Shown: positions 23,073 through 31,417 of the stretch, one piece after another | Numbering within the stretch: the stretch's first letter is position 1 | How the letters are laid out: each line of letters opens with the position of its first letter | Assembly: GCA_017619755.1 (NCBI GenBank) | Contig: JAFZRU010000020.1 | Span: forward strand, 1-37,840 | DNA from: Prevotella sp. | Lineage (GTDB): Bacteria; Bacteroidota; Bacteroidia; Bacteroidales; Bacteroidaceae | Length of the DNA: 37,840 nucleotides | Direction: 5' to 3' | The notes under the pieces: model-generated | Told to the model about the DNA's origin: nothing | Seen by the model: only the letters and a program-made list of their open reading frames with translations | Databases searched by the model: none | Translations under genes and position numbers: made by a program

Positions 23073-26000
23073 TTACTCATCATGCAACGACTCTGCTGCC
23101 ATGCCCAATCGCTCATCTCCGATATCACCTGTGACTCCACCGTCCATTTGCTCCAAGTCACGTTTCCTAATTCCAAAGGCGACGACGAAGAGATACATCG
23201 TGGTCAAGACGTTGATGGCGAGGTCGCATTCCTCCTCCGTGGCGGTCGGGGCCTTGTGGGCCTGGTCGTTGCGCCAGTCTCGCACCATGTTCAGGTAGTC
23301 GCTGAACTTCTTGTCGGCCTCGCTGTCTGAGTATTTCAGGCGCTTCAGACAGGGCGTCTGGAAGATGCAGTCGGCCAGCGTGGCTTTCATCCCCTCCTGC
23401 CCGGGTTTGGTGCTGACAATCTCGGAGTGGTTCTTGATGTAATACACTTTCTTCAGGAACACCTCGAAACGGCTGACAAGGGTGTTGAAATGCTGTTTCT
23501 TATCCACCAAAGGCACTTTGGCGGGACTGCAATACAGTCGGTTGAACGCATTCTGGATCACGTCGTTGGCACCGTCGATGTCGTCTATGGTCTTCGCGGC
23601 GATGATGGTCACCAGGTCCTCGGCGATTTGCTCCTTGCCCTTCGGCATCATCCTGAAGACGGAAAACTCCCGTTCGATGGTGGGGATGATCTTTTGCTTG
23701 AACCGCTCGGGGTTGAAGATGAGCGTATCGCCCTCTGCGCGGTAGTTCTGATACATCAGGTCGGCCATCTGCGTCATGATGCTGTTGTAGAGTTCACGGT
23801 TCTGGAACAGGCGGTCGAAGGCTCCCACGCTGTCGTCGTAGCATTGTTGGGCGGCCCGCTCGAAGATTTCCGGGAAAATGCTCTCGGCAAACTGCTTCGG
23901 GTCGTTGTTCTTCGCCTGCTTGGTGAGTTTCTTCTTGGCCGATGCCGTACTCAACTTGTCGTAAATGGCTTCCACAATCACACGGTCGGCAGGGGAGAAG
24001 TTGCCCTTGAACATCAGGTTCACCTTGTCGATGATGTTCGACAGCAGGTCCTTGTTCTCGTCGGGCTTGCCGCCGCCCTTCACATTCTCGCCCTTGATGC
24101 CTCCCTTGCCCTTGTCGAGCACGATGGCTTGCGTCCTGCCTTCCTCGATGCGTGAGTTGATGAGTTGGATTTGCTTGTTCAAATCCACTTTTTCGTGCGG
24201 GGTCTTGGGCAGGAGACGATAGAGCAGGTCGCAGAAGACGTAGGTCTTGTACAACGAGCGGTCGTAGGTACGCTCCACTTGTGCTATGTAGGCATAGAAG
24301 CGGACGAAGTTCTTAATGAGCGAGCGCACCTTGAAACGTGTCTCCTCGTCTAACTGCTCAAAACGGGCGACGATGGGCTTAAACGCATTGCTCAGTTTGG
24401 CCAGTCTGTTCTTGTCAGTTCGTGAGGATTTGCAATCCGAACACCTATCTATAGCCAGTTGGTAGATGGCCTCCTCTTCCGTTGGGTTCCACAGGTGGTG
24501 CTGCGCGATGTCGTTGCGGAAGTTATACACTCCGTTCACATCCACCGGACGAATCAGTTCCGTGGCGGTATAAAAGGGTTCGAAAGCGTGTTTGATGTCC
24601 TCGGGGGCATTGACGAAATCCAACACATAGGTGTCTTCCTTGTCCTTGTGTGCACGGTTCAGGCGGCTCAGCGTCTGCACGGCCTTCACATTCTTGAGTT
24701 TCTTATCTACAAACATGGTGTGCAGCAGCGGCTCGTCGAAGCCCGTCAGGTATTTGTCGGCCACCACCAACATGTTGTACATGTCGCTGGAGAAGTATAG
24801 CGGCAGCCGCTCCTCGCTGATGTGCAGGTCGGCGGTGGAGTTCAACTTTGTCTCGGTGTATTCCGTGTCTTCATATTGCACCTTGCCGGAGAAGGCCACC
24901 ATGGGATGCACATCGACATAGCCCTTCTCCTCGCAGTATTTTTTGATTTGCATGAAGTAGCGCAGCGCGTGGGCGCGACTCGACGTGACCACCATCGCCT
25001 TGGCCTGACCCTTCATGGCATGCAGGGTGATTTGCCTAAACTTCTCCACGATGATTTCCGTTTTCTGGTTGATGACGTGCTGGTGGTTGTCGTGATAGGC
25101 TTTCACCGCCTTCGTGGCGGGTGTTTCCTCGTAGGTGGGGTCTTGGGCGATGCGCTTTTCTATCTCGTAGGTCACGGAATAGGGCGTGTATTGCAGCAGC
25201 ACATCCTTGATGAACCCCTCTTCGATGGCCTGCAGCATGGAATAGATGTGGAAGGGGCGGTATTGGGTGTTATCGGATTGCAAATCCGAAGAATCGAAAC
25301 CGCCGGATTGCAAATCCGTCGGAGCGGTAATGGGCACACCGAAGGTCTGGAGAGTCTTGGGTTTGGGGGTAGCAGTAAAAGCATAGAACGACAGGTTGGC
25401 GTGCTTGCCTTGCGCCAACAAATCCTCCATCATGCTGTCGCGCTCCTTCTCCAGTTCTTCCTCGGTCTTCTCTTCCAGTTCGGCCATCTCGCGCAGTGCT
25501 TCGTCGGTGTCGGCCAGGGCAGTCTTCACCTTCTCCGCGCTCTTGCCGCTCTGGCTGCTGTGTGCCTCATCGACAATGATGGCGTAGTGCTTGCCGCTGC
25601 GCGATGTCACCTCTTGATAGATGACGGGGAAGCGGTGGAGCGTGCAGATGACGATGCGGGCGGCACCCTCGTTGATGACATCACGCAGTTTGGTCGAGGG
25701 GTCCTTGTCGGTGATGGTCTCAATCTGTCCCTCGATATGGTCGAAGCCGAGGATGGTGCTCTGCAACTGGGCGTTGAGTACGCGGCGGTCGGTGATGACG
25801 AACACGGCATCGAAGAGAGGATAAGCGGATTGCAAATCCTTATACTCGGTGCGGCCGGATTGCAAATCCGTCCGAGCATGGGCATCGTGGAGGGAGGCGA
25901 GGCGGTAGGTGAGCCAGGCGATGGAGTTCGACTTGCCGCTGCCTGCGGAGTGCTGGATGAGGTAGTTCTGTCCGCTGCCTTTCGCCTCGGTGTCGGCGAT

Positions 26001-26905: not shown

Positions 26906-28075
26906 CTAAATCTTTGTCAGTTCGTTAAACAATAGTGTGCCTTTCACCGTCAATAGGTATTTCTGCCGTGGGTGGCGAGGCTTGTCGGGATGGAGCAAAC
27001 AGACGAATCCCTCCTTGATGGCTGGATTGACATAAAGGTTCACAAAACTCTCCCTGTCTTTCAGATTCGCTCTATGCAACAATTCCTTGATGGATAGTTT
27101 CTCCTTTCCAAGAAGGCCGACTATTCTCAAAACATATTCATTGTCCGTGCCGAACTTGTCGGGTAACTTGTCGGGCAACTTGTCGGGTAACTTGTCGGGT
27201 GCTTGTTCGGTACTTGTAGGGGTGTCTTTCCATTCTTCAGGAGAACTGATTAGCATATATCTGTTGCGTAATTCGTTGTTCTCACCCATCAGCAAGTTGC
27301 GGAAGAATTTCTCCAAGAAACTGGTGTCGCGGACTATCTTCTGTTGGTAGTTGCTGTAATTGGCCCTGACCAAGGCGTTGCGGAAATACCAGGAATGTCT
27401 TGCAAAAAGGTCGTTGTCGACACTGAAACCCAACGAGCGAAGATACTGTATCGTGAACACCGCCGTAGCACGTGTGTTGCCCTCCCTGAAAGCATGGATT
27501 TGCCATAGGTTGGAAACGAATTGGCAGATATGGCGAACGAAATCCTCTATGGACAGTTGGGTGTGGTCGAACGCCATTTCCTGACTGATGTCATACTCCA
27601 AAGCACGGCGCAAGTCCTCCCAGTTCAGATAATTGACGGTGTTGCCTCTCAGCACCCATTCCTTCTTGGTGATGTCATACGTGCGCAGTTGTCCGGCATG
27701 TTTGAACACTCCTTCGAATATTCGGCGGTGCACCGAAATGTATCCGTTGGCGTTGAAAGCAAAAGTGGGTTGCGACAGCACCTTGACGATGTTGGCGGAA
27801 ACGCGGTCTGCTTCCTCCATCTCGTCATCTTCCGCCTCCCTCTTGCTCTTCGACAGGTAATAACTCTTGATAAGTTCCCTTGCCTCGTCGATGGTGATTT
27901 CACCCTCGATGTTCTTTCGGGCGGTCTCCTGCAGATATTCCGAGGTCTTCAACCCATCGACAGCCTGCAGGCCTATGCCCACACGCCATGCTTCGGCACG
28001 CTCCCGTTGGGTGGGCTCGCCATAACGGATATACTCGTCAAAGTTGATATACACATTACCGTCGTTATCTTCCAT
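26906..28075 (-). CDS. Fic-domain protein with C-terminal winged helix, embedded in the type I RM operon
   Basis: Fic proteins transfer AMP or other nucleotide parts to target proteins; the target here is unknown. The 389-residue product has a helical N-terminus (EYLQETARKNIEGEITIDEARELIKSYY) that may act like an inhibitory antitoxin helix, though the exact S/TxxxE(G/N) motif is not clear. The Fic motif reads HAFREGNTRATA (about 194-205); His is kept, but Thr replaces the usual Gly after GN and the final Arg is missing. A linker with four PDKL repeats (about 292-308) leads to a winged-helix-like domain (LSIKELLHRANLKDRESFVNLYVNPAIKEGFV). The ATG at 28075 has AGGA 6 nt upstream; an upstream TTG at 28094 is less likely. 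It lies 13 bp after hsdS and 2 bp before hsdR. Confidence 0.87.
   Translation of the reverse strand: MEDNDGNVYINFDEYIRYGEPTQRERAEAWRVGIGLQAVDGLKTSEYLQETARKNIEGEITIDEARELIKSYYLSKSKREAEDDEMEEADRVSANIVKVLSQPTFAFNANGYISVHRRIFEGVFKHAGQLRTYDITKKEWVLRGNTVNYLNWEDLRRALEYDISQEMAFDHTQLSIEDFVRHICQFVSNLWQIHAFREGNTRATAVFTIQYLRSLGFSVDNDLFARHSWYFRNALVRANYSNYQQKIVRDTSFLEKFFRNLLMGENNELRNRYMLISSPEEWKDTPTSTEQAPDKLPDKLPDKLPDKFGTDNEYVLRIVGLLGKEKLSIKELLHRANLKDRESFVNLYVNPAIKEGFVCLLHPDKPRHPRQKYLLTVKGTLLFNELTKI
27152..27199 (-). repeat. Four 12-bp tandem repeats in the fic gene (PDKL linker)
   Basis: The unit (A/T/G/C)AACTTGTCGGG on the plus strand occurs four times with a degenerate fifth after it. Being a multiple of three, copy changes would lengthen or shorten the linker without breaking the frame. 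Confidence 0.85.
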
Positions 28076-28088
28076 TTTTTCCTGGGTT

Positions 28089-29324
28089 TTAGTCAATCAT
28101 GGTTTTACCAGTCACTGCTTCGTAAATGACGCTCTTCTTGTAGTCCTTCAACGTCTCGATTTTCTGTTGCTTCAGGGATATCAAGGAGTCTATTTCGGAA
28201 CATTTGGTGTCGAGGAAAGCGGCGATGAATTGTTGTTCTTCCATTGGGGGGAGCAATACTGGAAGTGATTTTAATAACTCTTGGCTTAAAGAAGCACGTG
28301 TAACAAGGTTCATTTCTTTTACGAAATAAGCTCTATGAATATTGCTTCTGAAATAATACTTTGAGAAGTTCTTGTCAATCTTTCCTTTATATGGCCTAAA
28401 CCTTATAAGGAAGCCTGCAAAAACTGCGTTTTCTACCGTTTGCAGACATACGCTACTAAATCCTATCTCGTCTATCGTTTCTGATGTGCGTGTAAAAAAC
28501 ACATCTCCTTCTTTGACTGAAAATAACTTTTGATCCTGTTTGGAAGATTTAGCCAATCCCTTGAATACTGTAGGTAAACTATAGTTTTTGTAAACGTCAG
28601 TATAGCTGACAAAAGGAAATCCTTCGCCAAAATAATCCCCGCTCTGACTGATTCCATTTTGAGTCCTACCTAAATATCGTAATGGAACTATCTTCCACCC
28701 TTCTGGCACGTCCCCTATCCAGTCGATACCAGATGGAACAAGTTGTGCATTGGGATTGAGTCCTTTGGTGACAGCCTCGGTGATGACCGACTGTTTGTAG
28801 TCTGTCAACTGTGCTATCATCTGCTCCTGCAATGCTATCAGTTCGTCTATCTCGCTACACTTCTTGTCCAAATAATCCGCTATTCGCTGTTGCTCGGGAA
28901 GAGGGGGATGAACTACATTCATATCACCCAATATGGTTTGTGTCATACTGGGCAATGCTGTTGATGTTTGATATTTGTTAAATGGTAAAAGAGTTCCAAG
29001 ATAGTATAGGAATTTTCCACAGCCATCTGAATTTGGTATTGCATAGTACATCGTGTCAACTGTCCAAAACTTCTCATTTACATAAAGAGGTTTGTCTATT
29101 GTTCCTTTTCTACCAAACAAGACGGCCTCTCCATCATACAAATATTGTTTTGCATGCATAAAAATACCACCAGATCCATAGACTGGATAACCCGTGTCAC
29201 TTTCCACGTGTTTGTAGTCTTGCCCATTTTTAAATGAAAGCAATCGTTTTAATTTACAAGTCTTCCACTCCCTCGGAATCTTGCCAATCCACTCGATGCC
29301 ACTATCCTTGAATTCTCTTTCCAT
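28089..29324 (-). CDS. hsdS: Type I restriction enzyme, HsdS specificity subunit
   Basis: Sets the DNA target of the type I complex. The 411-residue product has two target-recognition domains, each starting with the usual phrase (EWIGKIPREWKTCKLKRLLS near residue 10; DWIGDVPEGWKIVPLRYLG near 205). Each is followed by a conserved coiled-coil spacer (PPLPEQQRIADYLDKKCSEIDELIALQEQMI; PPMEEQQFIAAFLDTKCSEIDSLISLKQQKI). The two halves are related, as in full-length HsdS. The recognition domains are visibly more AT-rich than the flanking genes, as expected for exchangeable modules. The gene is 11 bp downstream of hsdM. No second partial hsdS or recombinase gene is in the window. Confidence 0.94.
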   Translation of the reverse strand: MEREFKDSGIEWIGKIPREWKTCKLKRLLSFKNGQDYKHVESDTGYPVYGSGGIFMHAKQYLYDGEAVLFGRKGTIDKPLYVNEKFWTVDTMYYAIPNSDGCGKFLYYLGTLLPFNKYQTSTALPSMTQTILGDMNVVHPPLPEQQRIADYLDKKCSEIDELIALQEQMIAQLTDYKQSVITEAVTKGLNPNAQLVPSGIDWIGDVPEGWKIVPLRYLGRTQNGISQSGDYFGEGFPFVSYTDVYKNYSLPTVFKGLAKSSKQDQKLFSVKEGDVFFTRTSETIDEIGFSSVCLQTVENAVFAGFLIRFRPYKGKIDKNFSKYYFRSNIHRAYFVKEMNLVTRASLSQELLKSLPVLLPPMEEQQFIAAFLDTKCSEIDSLISLKQQKIETLKDYKKSVIYEAVTGKTMID

Positions 29325-29335
29325 ACTGTTTCAGT

Positions 29336-31417
29336 TTAGTGCAGTAGACTCTCCATCAACTCACTTTCCTTTTGCTCCAGTTCCTTCAGCGTCTGAAATA
29401 TCTCGCTGCTGGGCTTCAAGGGTGTGTAGCGGTAGAACTCACGGGTGAAGGGTATCTCATAGCCGATGCGGGTCTTGCTCTCGTCAACATGGTAGTCGGG
29501 AGCGTAGGGAGCGACATTGTTGGCAAGGTAGATGCCTTGGTCTTCTTTCCAGGGGATAATTTCGGTATCGGCAAGGTCGGTGTCCCAGACATAGGTGCGC
29601 TCACGCAGGTTGAACGGGTCTTCATACACTGGCTCCACGGTCTCGTCTTTCGTGCCTAAATACTGGCGGATTTTCTTCACTTGTGCCTTGGTTACTTTCA
29701 ATCCTGCCTTAAGCTTGATTTTTTGGAAGAAGTCGCGGTCGAGCATCCGCTGACCGTTATAATACACACGGTAGCCATCGATGAATAGTTGCATGGCCTG
29801 TCTATCCGATTCTGACAATTTGACCTTCGGTCGAGCTTGCTCACGCTCGGCCGTCGAAACAAGCTCCGACGGCTCTCGCTCAATCGCAACCTTTACGCTC
29901 TCGTCAGGCATCTGCGGATTCTCAAACACCAATCGCAAGGGGCGGTCGATGAAGATTTTTCGGTATTTGAAATCGTCGTTGTCCTTCACGCGGCTCTCCA
30001 CCTGCACCTCCACGCCATCGGGAGTGGTGGCCTTGTAAACGAAGTTGTTGAAGCCGTGGTAGGCCTGAATGATGAGGTCGCGGCAGAAGTCGGAAATCTC
30101 CACACGTTTGTTGCCCAATGGCTTGCGGCGCTTTTCAAAGCACTGGCTGGCATCGATGAGTTGCACCTTGCCCTGTCGCTCCGCACTTTTGTTCTTGGTG
30201 ACCAGCCAGACGTAGGTAGCGATGCCCGTGTTGTAGAACAGGTCGGTGGGGAGTTGCACGATGGCCTCCAACCAGTCATGGTCGAGCAGGTAGCCGCGGA
30301 TGTTGCTCTCGCCACTGCCGGCATCGCCCTTGAAGAGTGAGGAACCGTTCTGGATGATGGCCATACGTCCCTCATCCTTCAGTTTGGCGACGCCATTCAA
30401 CAAGAACAGCATCTGTCCGTCACCGATGGAGGGCAGGCCTGGTTCGAAGCGACCGGCACCGCCCAACTTATACTCTTCCTCCACCTTTTGGCGAGAGGGC
30501 TTCCATTCGATGCCGAACGGGGGATTGGAGATGATGTAGTCGAACTTATACCCAGCAAACTTGTCGTCGCCCAAGGTGTCACCCTGCCGCATGTTGTCGG
30601 CGTTGCCACCACGGATGAGCGTGTCGGCCTTGGCAATGGCAAATGTCTGGTTGTTGAGTTCCTGGCCATAACTGGTGATTTCCGCATCGGGGTCGATTTG
30701 CTTGAAACGGTCGTGGAGACAGGAGAGCATCTGACTCGTGCCCATCGTCATGTCATAGTCCGTGGCGATGATGCCCTCCTCTTCCAACCGCTCCTCGTCC
30801 TCGCCAATCAGCAACTCCGCCATCAGGTTGATGATGTCGCGGGCGGTGAAGTGCGCTCCGGCCTGCTCGTCGTAACTCTCAGAGAATTTCCTCACTAGTT
30901 CCTCGAAGATGTAACCCATATCGACGCTGGAAATCTTGTCGGCACCGAGATAAGCTTTCGTGGTGCAGAACTCCTTGATGACGAGGTAGAGCAGTCCGTT
31001 GTCGTTCATCTTGTCTATCTCCTTCTGGAACTCCATGCGGTGGATGATGTCGATGACATTCTCCGAGAAATGGTTGAGATACGACTCGAAATTGTCCTTG
31101 ATGTTGTCGGCGTCGGCCAGCAGCGTCTCGAAGTTGAAGCGGCTCAGGTTGTAGAACTTCTGTCCGGCAGCCCTTTCGAGGAAGCCACGCTTCATCTCGA
31201 TTTTCTTCTCCTCCAACTCCTTGTTGGTCTCCAGTACCTTTTCGCGTGTGGGAGCCAGCGTGTCCTCAAACCGCTTGATGACACACATCGGCAGGATGAC
31301 ATTGCCGTACTCATGGGGTTTATAGACTCCCACCAACTTGTCGGCTATCGCCCATATCAGATTGGCTTTCTCCTGCACGTTGATGGCAGTCTGCTGTTGT
31401 CTCTCGTCTATGCTCAT
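29336..31417 (-). CDS. hsdM: Type I restriction enzyme, HsdM (N6-adenine methyltransferase) subunit
   Basis: Methylates adenine in the target site and forms the M2S core. The 693-residue product has an N-terminal helical HsdM domain (about 18-150) and the lead-in to the methyltransferase fold (YIFEELVRKFSESYDEQAGAHFTARDIINLMAELL). The AdoMet loop reads DYDMTMGTSQML, where many HsdM have DPxCGTGGxL, and the catalytic motif is ISNPPFGIEWK. The C-terminal part has an in-frame hairpin-rich stretch coding for EREPSELVSTAEREQARPK (about 513-531). First gene of the hsdM-hsdS-fic-hsdR operon. A -7 box lies about 30 bp upstream on the minus strand. Confidence 0.94.
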   Translation of the reverse strand: MSIDERQQQTAINVQEKANLIWAIADKLVGVYKPHEYGNVILPMCVIKRFEDTLAPTREKVLETNKELEEKKIEMKRGFLERAAGQKFYNLSRFNFETLLADADNIKDNFESYLNHFSENVIDIIHRMEFQKEIDKMNDNGLLYLVIKEFCTTKAYLGADKISSVDMGYIFEELVRKFSESYDEQAGAHFTARDIINLMAELLIGEDEERLEEEGIIATDYDMTMGTSQMLSCLHDRFKQIDPDAEITSYGQELNNQTFAIAKADTLIRGGNADNMRQGDTLGDDKFAGYKFDYIISNPPFGIEWKPSRQKVEEEYKLGGAGRFEPGLPSIGDGQMLFLLNGVAKLKDEGRMAIIQNGSSLFKGDAGSGESNIRGYLLDHDWLEAIVQLPTDLFYNTGIATYVWLVTKNKSAERQGKVQLIDASQCFEKRRKPLGNKRVEISDFCRDLIIQAYHGFNNFVYKATTPDGVEVQVESRVKDNDDFKYRKIFIDRPLRLVFENPQMPDESVKVAIEREPSELVSTAEREQARPKVKLSESDRQAMQLFIDGYRVYYNGQRMLDRDFFQKIKLKAGLKVTKAQVKKIRQYLGTKDETVEPVYEDPFNLRERTYVWDTDLADTEIIPWKEDQGIYLANNVAPYAPDYHVDESKTRIGYEIPFTREFYRYTPLKPSSEIFQTLKELEQKESELMESLLH
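29828..29881 (-). repeat. Hairpin-rich in-frame stretch inside hsdM, possible inserted palindromic unit
   Basis: Two adjacent hairpins occur on the minus strand: CCGTCG/CGACGG with a 10-nt loop and CGAGC/GCTCG next to it. The encoded segment is charged and lies between conserved parts of HsdM. The sequence differs from the hsdR repeats. There is only one copy in the window, so mobility is a guess. Confidence 0.4.

Follow-up and report, generated by a model that had tools for sequence, protein, structure and literature searches.

The gene for the R subunit of a type I restriction system in a Prevotella genome raises the question of what the repeated palindromes within its reading frame are, and how they came to lie there. 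The gene, hsdR, belongs to a locus which also includes hsdM, hsdS and, between hsdS and hsdR, a gene for a Fic-domain protein (Table 1); we refer to the whole analysed stretch of 37,840 nucleotides as the window. The family model TIGR00348 (hsdR) scores 151.9 bits against the HsdR of the window, below its cut-off of 284.55. The Fic gene contains a short tandem repeat of its own at 27150-27215, of the GACAAGTT(A/G)CCC type on the minus strand, apparently read as DKLP several times.

The initial annotation had described five palindromes of the GGATTTGCAATCC type in hsdR, two pairs with an identical 30-bp period and TC(G/C)GAGC after each, plus one reversed copy, all of them in frame and translated as DLQS- or SDCKS-type peptides. 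Each element of this description is borne out by the sequence and its translation. All five are exact copies of the 13-mer, a 5-bp inverted repeat around TGC; the rest of the window has none, and neither did any of 100 dinucleotide shuffles of the window. Allowing up to two mismatches returned the same five matches only, a count of five being reached in 2 of the 100 shuffles. In both pairs the period is exactly 30 bp, and the plus strand then reads TCGGAGC and TCCGAGC. The reading phase is the same for all copies: GAT TTG CAA TCC gives DLQS in four and GAT TGC AAA TCC gives DCKS in one, and the hsdR open reading frame is intact.

Table 1 Coordinates of the restriction locus, the palindromes and the three hsdR sites in the window.
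Feature	Position	Strand	Evidence or reading
hsdR, type I restriction R subunit, 1276 aa	23073..26903	-	ORF; Pfam HSDR_N, SWI2_SNF2, ResIII, T1R_D3-like; PADLOC REase_I
Fic-domain protein	26906..28096	-	Pfam Fic, Fic-like_C
hsdS, specificity subunit	28089..29324	-	Pfam Methylase_S; PADLOC Specificity_I
hsdM, methyltransferase subunit	29336..31417	-	Pfam N6_Mtase, HsdM_N; PADLOC MTase_I
Site 1, complete REP unit: tag GCT, 10-bp hairpin, GAGTAT linker, second palindrome	25827..25877	-	translated ARTDLQSGRTEYKDLQS; 9/10 stem pairs
Site 2, REP unit with diverged linker, tag GCT	25275..25325	-	translated APTDLQSGGFDSSDLQS; 9/10 stem pairs
Site 3, single decayed REP hairpin in opposite orientation, tag GTT	24418..24443	+	gene strand reads SDCKS; 7/10 stem pairs
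Exact 13-mer copy	24426-24438	+	
Exact 13-mer copies	25275-25287, 25305-25317, 25827-25839, 25857-25869	-	

We think it highly probable (roughly 85%) that the hsdR palindromes are copies of a REP-type repeat which were mobilised in trans by a Y1/HUH transposase of the RAYT kind and inserted into hsdR. The first line of evidence is dispersal. The initial annotation would have fallen had the genome held no further copies, and such copies exist: the genome assembly (3.7 Mb, 67 contigs, 86% complete) contains 13 exact copies of the 13-mer and 23 palindromes of the GGATTnnnAATCC type, with none for the reversed-pattern controls, as befits a short, dispersed hairpin repeat. Seventeen of the 23 palindromes fall in six composite elements of ~110 bp, each consisting of a unit and an inverted unit with outer hairpins tagged GCTC; none of the six lies in a gene, taken as an open frame of at least 200 codons. 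The 30-bp dimer, with up to three mismatches, occurs 13 times in the genome (control, zero), two of these being the hsdR pairs. Across a genus sample, 100 of 299 genomes carry the 13-mer, with up to 194 copies (genome G217; the reversed control matched twice overall), and an order sample yielded the dimer in 21 of 393 genomes and 16 of 206 genera (control, zero). The 30-bp pairing is a regular internal spacing of the repeat unit. Spread in viruses was considered and set aside: the dimer had no match in viral contigs, and the matches of a single 15-mer to at least 120 viral stretches were taken as chance given the size of the collection. Nor is an RNA family indicated: scanning locus L002 against Rfam with E up to 1 gave three matches to microRNA models, far below the gathering score.

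As expected of REPs, the repeat is mostly extragenic: 229 of 249 copies in the genus sample and 79 of 79 in the order-level loci lie outside open frames of at least 200 codons, leaving 20 and none inside. This count used the open-frame length and no gene caller, and two of the five window copies as well as the loci L034 to L048 were left out of it. Several of the in-frame matches among the 20 are probably due to chance; one of them, ICNPNTPSG, is presumably a native aminotransferase motif. A ResIII-domain protein of another genome (L089) carries the palindrome in a different frame, read as GIANP. Two further proteins, one LRR/Big_2/dockerin-like (L096) and one of outer-membrane type (L027), have tandem linker repeats of the GGDLQSV and EGDLQSPTNTS types, which give the impression of tandem amplification of REP hairpins.

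The second line of evidence is the architecture of the unit, which consists of a G[CT]T tag, a 10-bp hairpin with a 3-nt TGC loop, a GARTAT linker and a smaller second hairpin 30 bp downstream. We collected 118 distinct units by anchoring on the loop (TTnnnAA) and the linker, with the stem left out of the search. Stem pairs 6-10 are standard in 88-99% of these units, with up to four pair types, and pair 11 in 12%: the stem of the unit covaries. G at -8 is found in 113 and T at -6 in 116 of the 118. Among 81 distinct 28-mers, standard pairing at the five outer positions reaches 94.3%, compared to 56.3% (largest value 62%) in 1000 shuffles that ignore relatedness. Of these 81 distinct units, 53 have GTT as their tag and 22 have GCT, so that 75 carry a conserved G[CT]T immediately 5' of the hairpin foot, as REPs do; neither the GTAG nor the CGTC tag of the super-families in PMC3733652 is present, and GTT or GCT precedes the stem instead. 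In hsdR, the 13-mer in the leading copy of each pair forms the top of the 10-bp stem. The leading hairpins of sites 1, 2 and 3, of an insert in a second HsdR of the same genome and of a site found only in the relative L034 all have the tag, with 9, 9, 7, 9 and 9 of 10 pairs, and the second palindromes of the hsdR pairs are without it, as expected for the second hairpin of a unit. The site 2 linker has diverged in the window and is the standard GAATAT in the L034 counterpart. Dimers outside hsdR are close in sequence: the nearest to site 1 differ at 4 of 43 positions, and the nearest to site 2 at 7 of 43. One of the former (L141) adjoins a RAYT gene, as do L146 and L135; these three loci hold dimers that are close in sequence to those in the HsdR genes of the window, L034 and L043.

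The third line is the enzyme. Among the Y1_Tnp genes of 14 copy-rich or copy-bearing genomes, three are flanked by these palindromes, and all three products match both PF01797 and NF047646, the REP-associated tyrosine transposase family (best E 5.1e-31); they also match the solved E. coli-type TnpArep, 4er8 (E 3.1e-8). Searched with a profile built from these three proteins, 17 of the 299 genomes gave strong matches (E <1e-30), of which three are fragments only and another has a stop. The core palindrome lies on both sides of 6 of the 13 complete RAYT genes, and variant-stem hairpins lie on at least one side of 4 more; the flank scan found no such hairpin for the remaining complete genes, L134, L136 and L137. 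The motifs NH[LIV]H, WQ and YIH[QN]NP are all present in 9 of the 13, and the other 4 deviate at one or two places. Genomes which bear this RAYT are richer in the repeat: at least five copies are found in 8 of 17, against 21 of 282 others (Fisher 4e-5).

The search for a RAYT-type transposase proposed in the initial annotation thus succeeded in relatives, where the gene is flanked by the same units, and not in the genome of the window, where, at 86% completeness, no RAYT of this kind was found. Three copy-rich genomes, G217 (194 copies), G073 (82) and G126 (59), likewise gave no strong match. Contigs of metagenome-assembled genomes often end in these repeats, and a missing RAYT is therefore weak evidence. 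The window's genome has two other RAYT-like genes (E 1.8e-5 and 2.6e-4; L031 and L032), which we rejected as movers of the repeat, since such palindromes are absent within 1.2-1.6 kb on either side of them. At L032 (contig C63, 1095-2850), repeats of the GTAGGGGCGGACTTTATGTCC and GTAGGGGCGGAC types surround this RAYT-like gene of a different type and form a second REP family.

Alignment with 23 HsdR relatives places filled sites beside empty ones. Fifteen of the relatives come from named species genomes, mostly Prevotellaceae or Bacteroidales metagenome assemblies, and eight are loci from a 100-relative search in which 49 matched. The site 1 insert occurs in 2 of 22 aligned relatives (L034 and L043) and is absent from the other 20; the site 2 insert occurs in 1 of 23 and the site 3 insert in 1 of 22, in both cases L034. 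The closest insert-free relatives (L035, L036 and L041) have short loops at the sites, reading DAAQKSIFD, EKGRTTEEDKYR and of LA(T/S) type. At the DNA level, a few codons of the relatives are replaced as well as lengthened at all three sites, and because these codons are replaced and not just interrupted, the inserts fall short of perfectly clean insertions. In the HsdR of L034 a fourth hairpin is present, read as GLDYKST, and the other aligned relatives lack a hairpin there; at this place, in the loop after GGAGNP, the HsdR of L041 has an unrelated, non-palindromic insert of 14 residues (the PSPQADGQLPSGRG region). L042, whose HsdR is 83% identical to that of the window, comes from a bin titled Akkermansia and its gene groups with Bacteroidales, through either transfer or a contaminated bin. 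The second HsdR of the window's genome (L001; ResIII, EcoEI_R_C; PADLOC REase_I) carries an exact copy of the 13-mer as well, which adds six residues, SDCKSG, missing in 11 of 11 aligned relatives (29 fetched).

The placement of the inserts between helicase motifs, together with length variation at site 1 in L053 and L055 as well, suggests that they occupy surface loops of HsdR. The peptides are most likely carried along as tolerated passengers and not as functional parts. The initial annotation had gone further and seen a small mobile unit seemingly shaped to be translated harmlessly. For the unit itself this does not hold: only 24% of 107 units have no stop in the hsdR (DLQS) frame, the share for other frames ranging up to 96%, and on average a unit has 3.31 of 6 frames open, only slightly more than the 2.92 of a dinucleotide model (largest of 200 sets, 3.21). 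The idea of a unit designed to lack stops in every frame was rejected on this count. For the surviving copies the idea does stand in part: in this genome the TGC loop is present in 6 of 6 coding copies and 7 of 17 non-coding ones (p 0.019), and a TGT loop (GTA centre) would place TAA in the DLQS frame. This fits hsdR copies being the stop-free ones, filtered by selection on the host gene.

In the mechanism we propose, the G[CT]T tag and the hairpin would direct a RAYT like those of subclass 2.6 / group 5 in Bacteroidetes to cut single-stranded DNA, and the enzyme would paste single hairpins or whole units elsewhere. Within genes, the copies that survive would be those that are in frame, stop-free and in a tolerant loop. 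Whole units would have entered at sites 1 and 2, and single hairpins at site 3 and in the second HsdR. The RAYT may then have been lost from this genome or left unassembled, or the hsdR alleles may have come from a RAYT-bearing genome. Several points speak against the REP/RAYT reading: the absence of the RAYT from the genome itself, the copy-rich genomes with no strong match, the complete RAYTs with no such hairpin in the flank scan, sites that are not cleanly interrupted, and a sharing of sites that departs from the gene tree.

The last of these points bears on an alternative that we regard as possible, if doubtful, namely that the inserts were spread by recombination (gene conversion, template switching or short-tract exchange of hsdR alleles) and not by a transposase acting at the sites. 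The window and L034 have all three hsdR sites in common although their hsdR genes are not sisters: in a tree with the inserts masked, the window falls outside a clade of L041, L034, L035, L036 and L043 (support 100/99), and a grouping of the window with L034, tested after the first tree had been seen, is rejected (p-AU 2.5e-43). The odd hairpin of site 3, which has decayed alike in both, is shared as well, with 1 difference in the 26 nt of hairpin and tag, and this favours a common origin for that site. The flanks show no sign of exchange: over the 200 nt around each site, L034 shares 92-96% identity with L035, L036, L041 and L043 and 84-89% with the window, which leads us to reject a recent transfer of whole hsdR tracts between the two. 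The inserts themselves differ at 3 of 51, 9 of 51 and (with flank) 6 of 45 positions at sites 1-3, and are therefore not recent copies of one another. Moreover, the fourth hairpin of L034 and the hairpin in the unrelated HsdR would need new insertions even under recombination. The shared sites may be due to insertion in parallel, to exchange over very short stretches, or to an ancestral presence of the inserts followed by their replacement with empty alleles.

Parallel insertion could be taken further. Exact matching locates four in-gene insertion places in the window's genome, and two type I R genes account for all of them, a pattern that is striking but was noticed post hoc. It seems to us unlikely that these REPs land repeatedly and by preference in type I R genes, the window's lineage and that of L034 each having been struck at the same three HsdR loops in separate events, and the window's genome in a second R gene too; if true, it would point to how RAYTs choose single-stranded targets, or to decorated R subunits being favoured.

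The concentration of the four places in two R genes could also mean that the hairpins or peptides are kept for a function, for instance to slow or stabilise hsdR mRNA or to tune restriction activity. A comparison of the five 13-mers between the window and L034 points the same way: they differ at 1 of 65 positions, the genes at ~14% (binomial 7e-4, for a comparison chosen after the fact). Close relatives do without the inserts, however, the site 2 linker has drifted and the site 3 hairpin has decayed, and we consider retention for function quite improbable.

Finally, that DLQS and DCKS are ancestral or convergent native residues, with the palindrome as their by-product, would suit copies that are in frame in an intact ORF, and is ruled out for practical purposes by the empty relatives: the initial annotation would have been undone by relatives all sharing these residues, which are instead missing from at least 20 of the 22-23 at each site, and intergenic regions hold scattered copies of this 13-mer complete with tag and stem.

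Palindromic elements that are translated in frame inside proteins are known from Rickettsia (RPE). The hsdR inserts resemble RPEs in being translated in-frame palindromes. As REPINs and BIMEs are generally described, the intergenic copies in this genome are likewise two inverted units of ~110 bp, whereas each hsdR site holds one unit or one hairpin, and copy number here is low. The reading in the initial annotation, which likened the copies to palindromic elements within Rickettsia genes and to paired REP units, is on the whole correct.

In the portions of PMC6006769 available to us, TnpAREP subclass 2.6 (group 5 of Bertels) is described as found mostly in Bacteroidetes and as having ‘atypical secondary structures’ on its flanks that recur elsewhere, and REPs are reported in frame inside RAYT genes of subclass 2.4. 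The RAYTs found here agree with subclass 2.6 in their Bacteroidetes hosts and in hairpin flanks that are dispersed elsewhere, and 9 of the 13 complete ones carry all three motifs given for it, NH[LIV]H, WQ and YIH[QN]NP; the tag, the covarying 10-bp stem, the GARTAT linker and the second hairpin at 30 bp are described here, as are in-gene copies, of which those portions make no mention for this subclass. The available text of PMC3733652 reports intragenic GTAG and CGTC REPs, as monomers or dimers in frame and often twice per gene, in hosts that often handle DNA (uvrA, recB, dnaE and others), with REPs otherwise mostly intergenic; the intragenic repeats of R. conorii, RPE-4 and RPE-6, are filed there under CGTC. 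Our copies are alike in being in-frame monomers and dimers, repeated in one gene, with DNA-handling hosts, and differ in the G[CT]T tag and in having type I R subunits as hosts, which are absent from the lists in that text. In excerpts from the literature, the 13-mer string turned up only in work on fish primers, and a search for hsdR and REP had nothing on such inserts among the matches listed. In-frame REPs inside genes are thus already known from the text at hand, and the present analysis adds the G[CT]T-tagged unit that goes with a RAYT family of Bacteroidetes, along with its occurrence in the genes of type I R subunits.

The finding supplies a defined repeat unit for a Bacteroidetes RAYT group whose repeats had been called atypical. 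It also provides a natural series of sites within a single gene, some filled and others empty, so that the family, its likely enzyme and several empty sites can be compared, and the sequence such RAYTs recognise, the places of insertion and the neutrality of translated REPs can now be put to the test. A further consequence is caution in interpreting DLQS- and DCKS-type stretches in the proteins of these bacteria, which may be derived from repeats.
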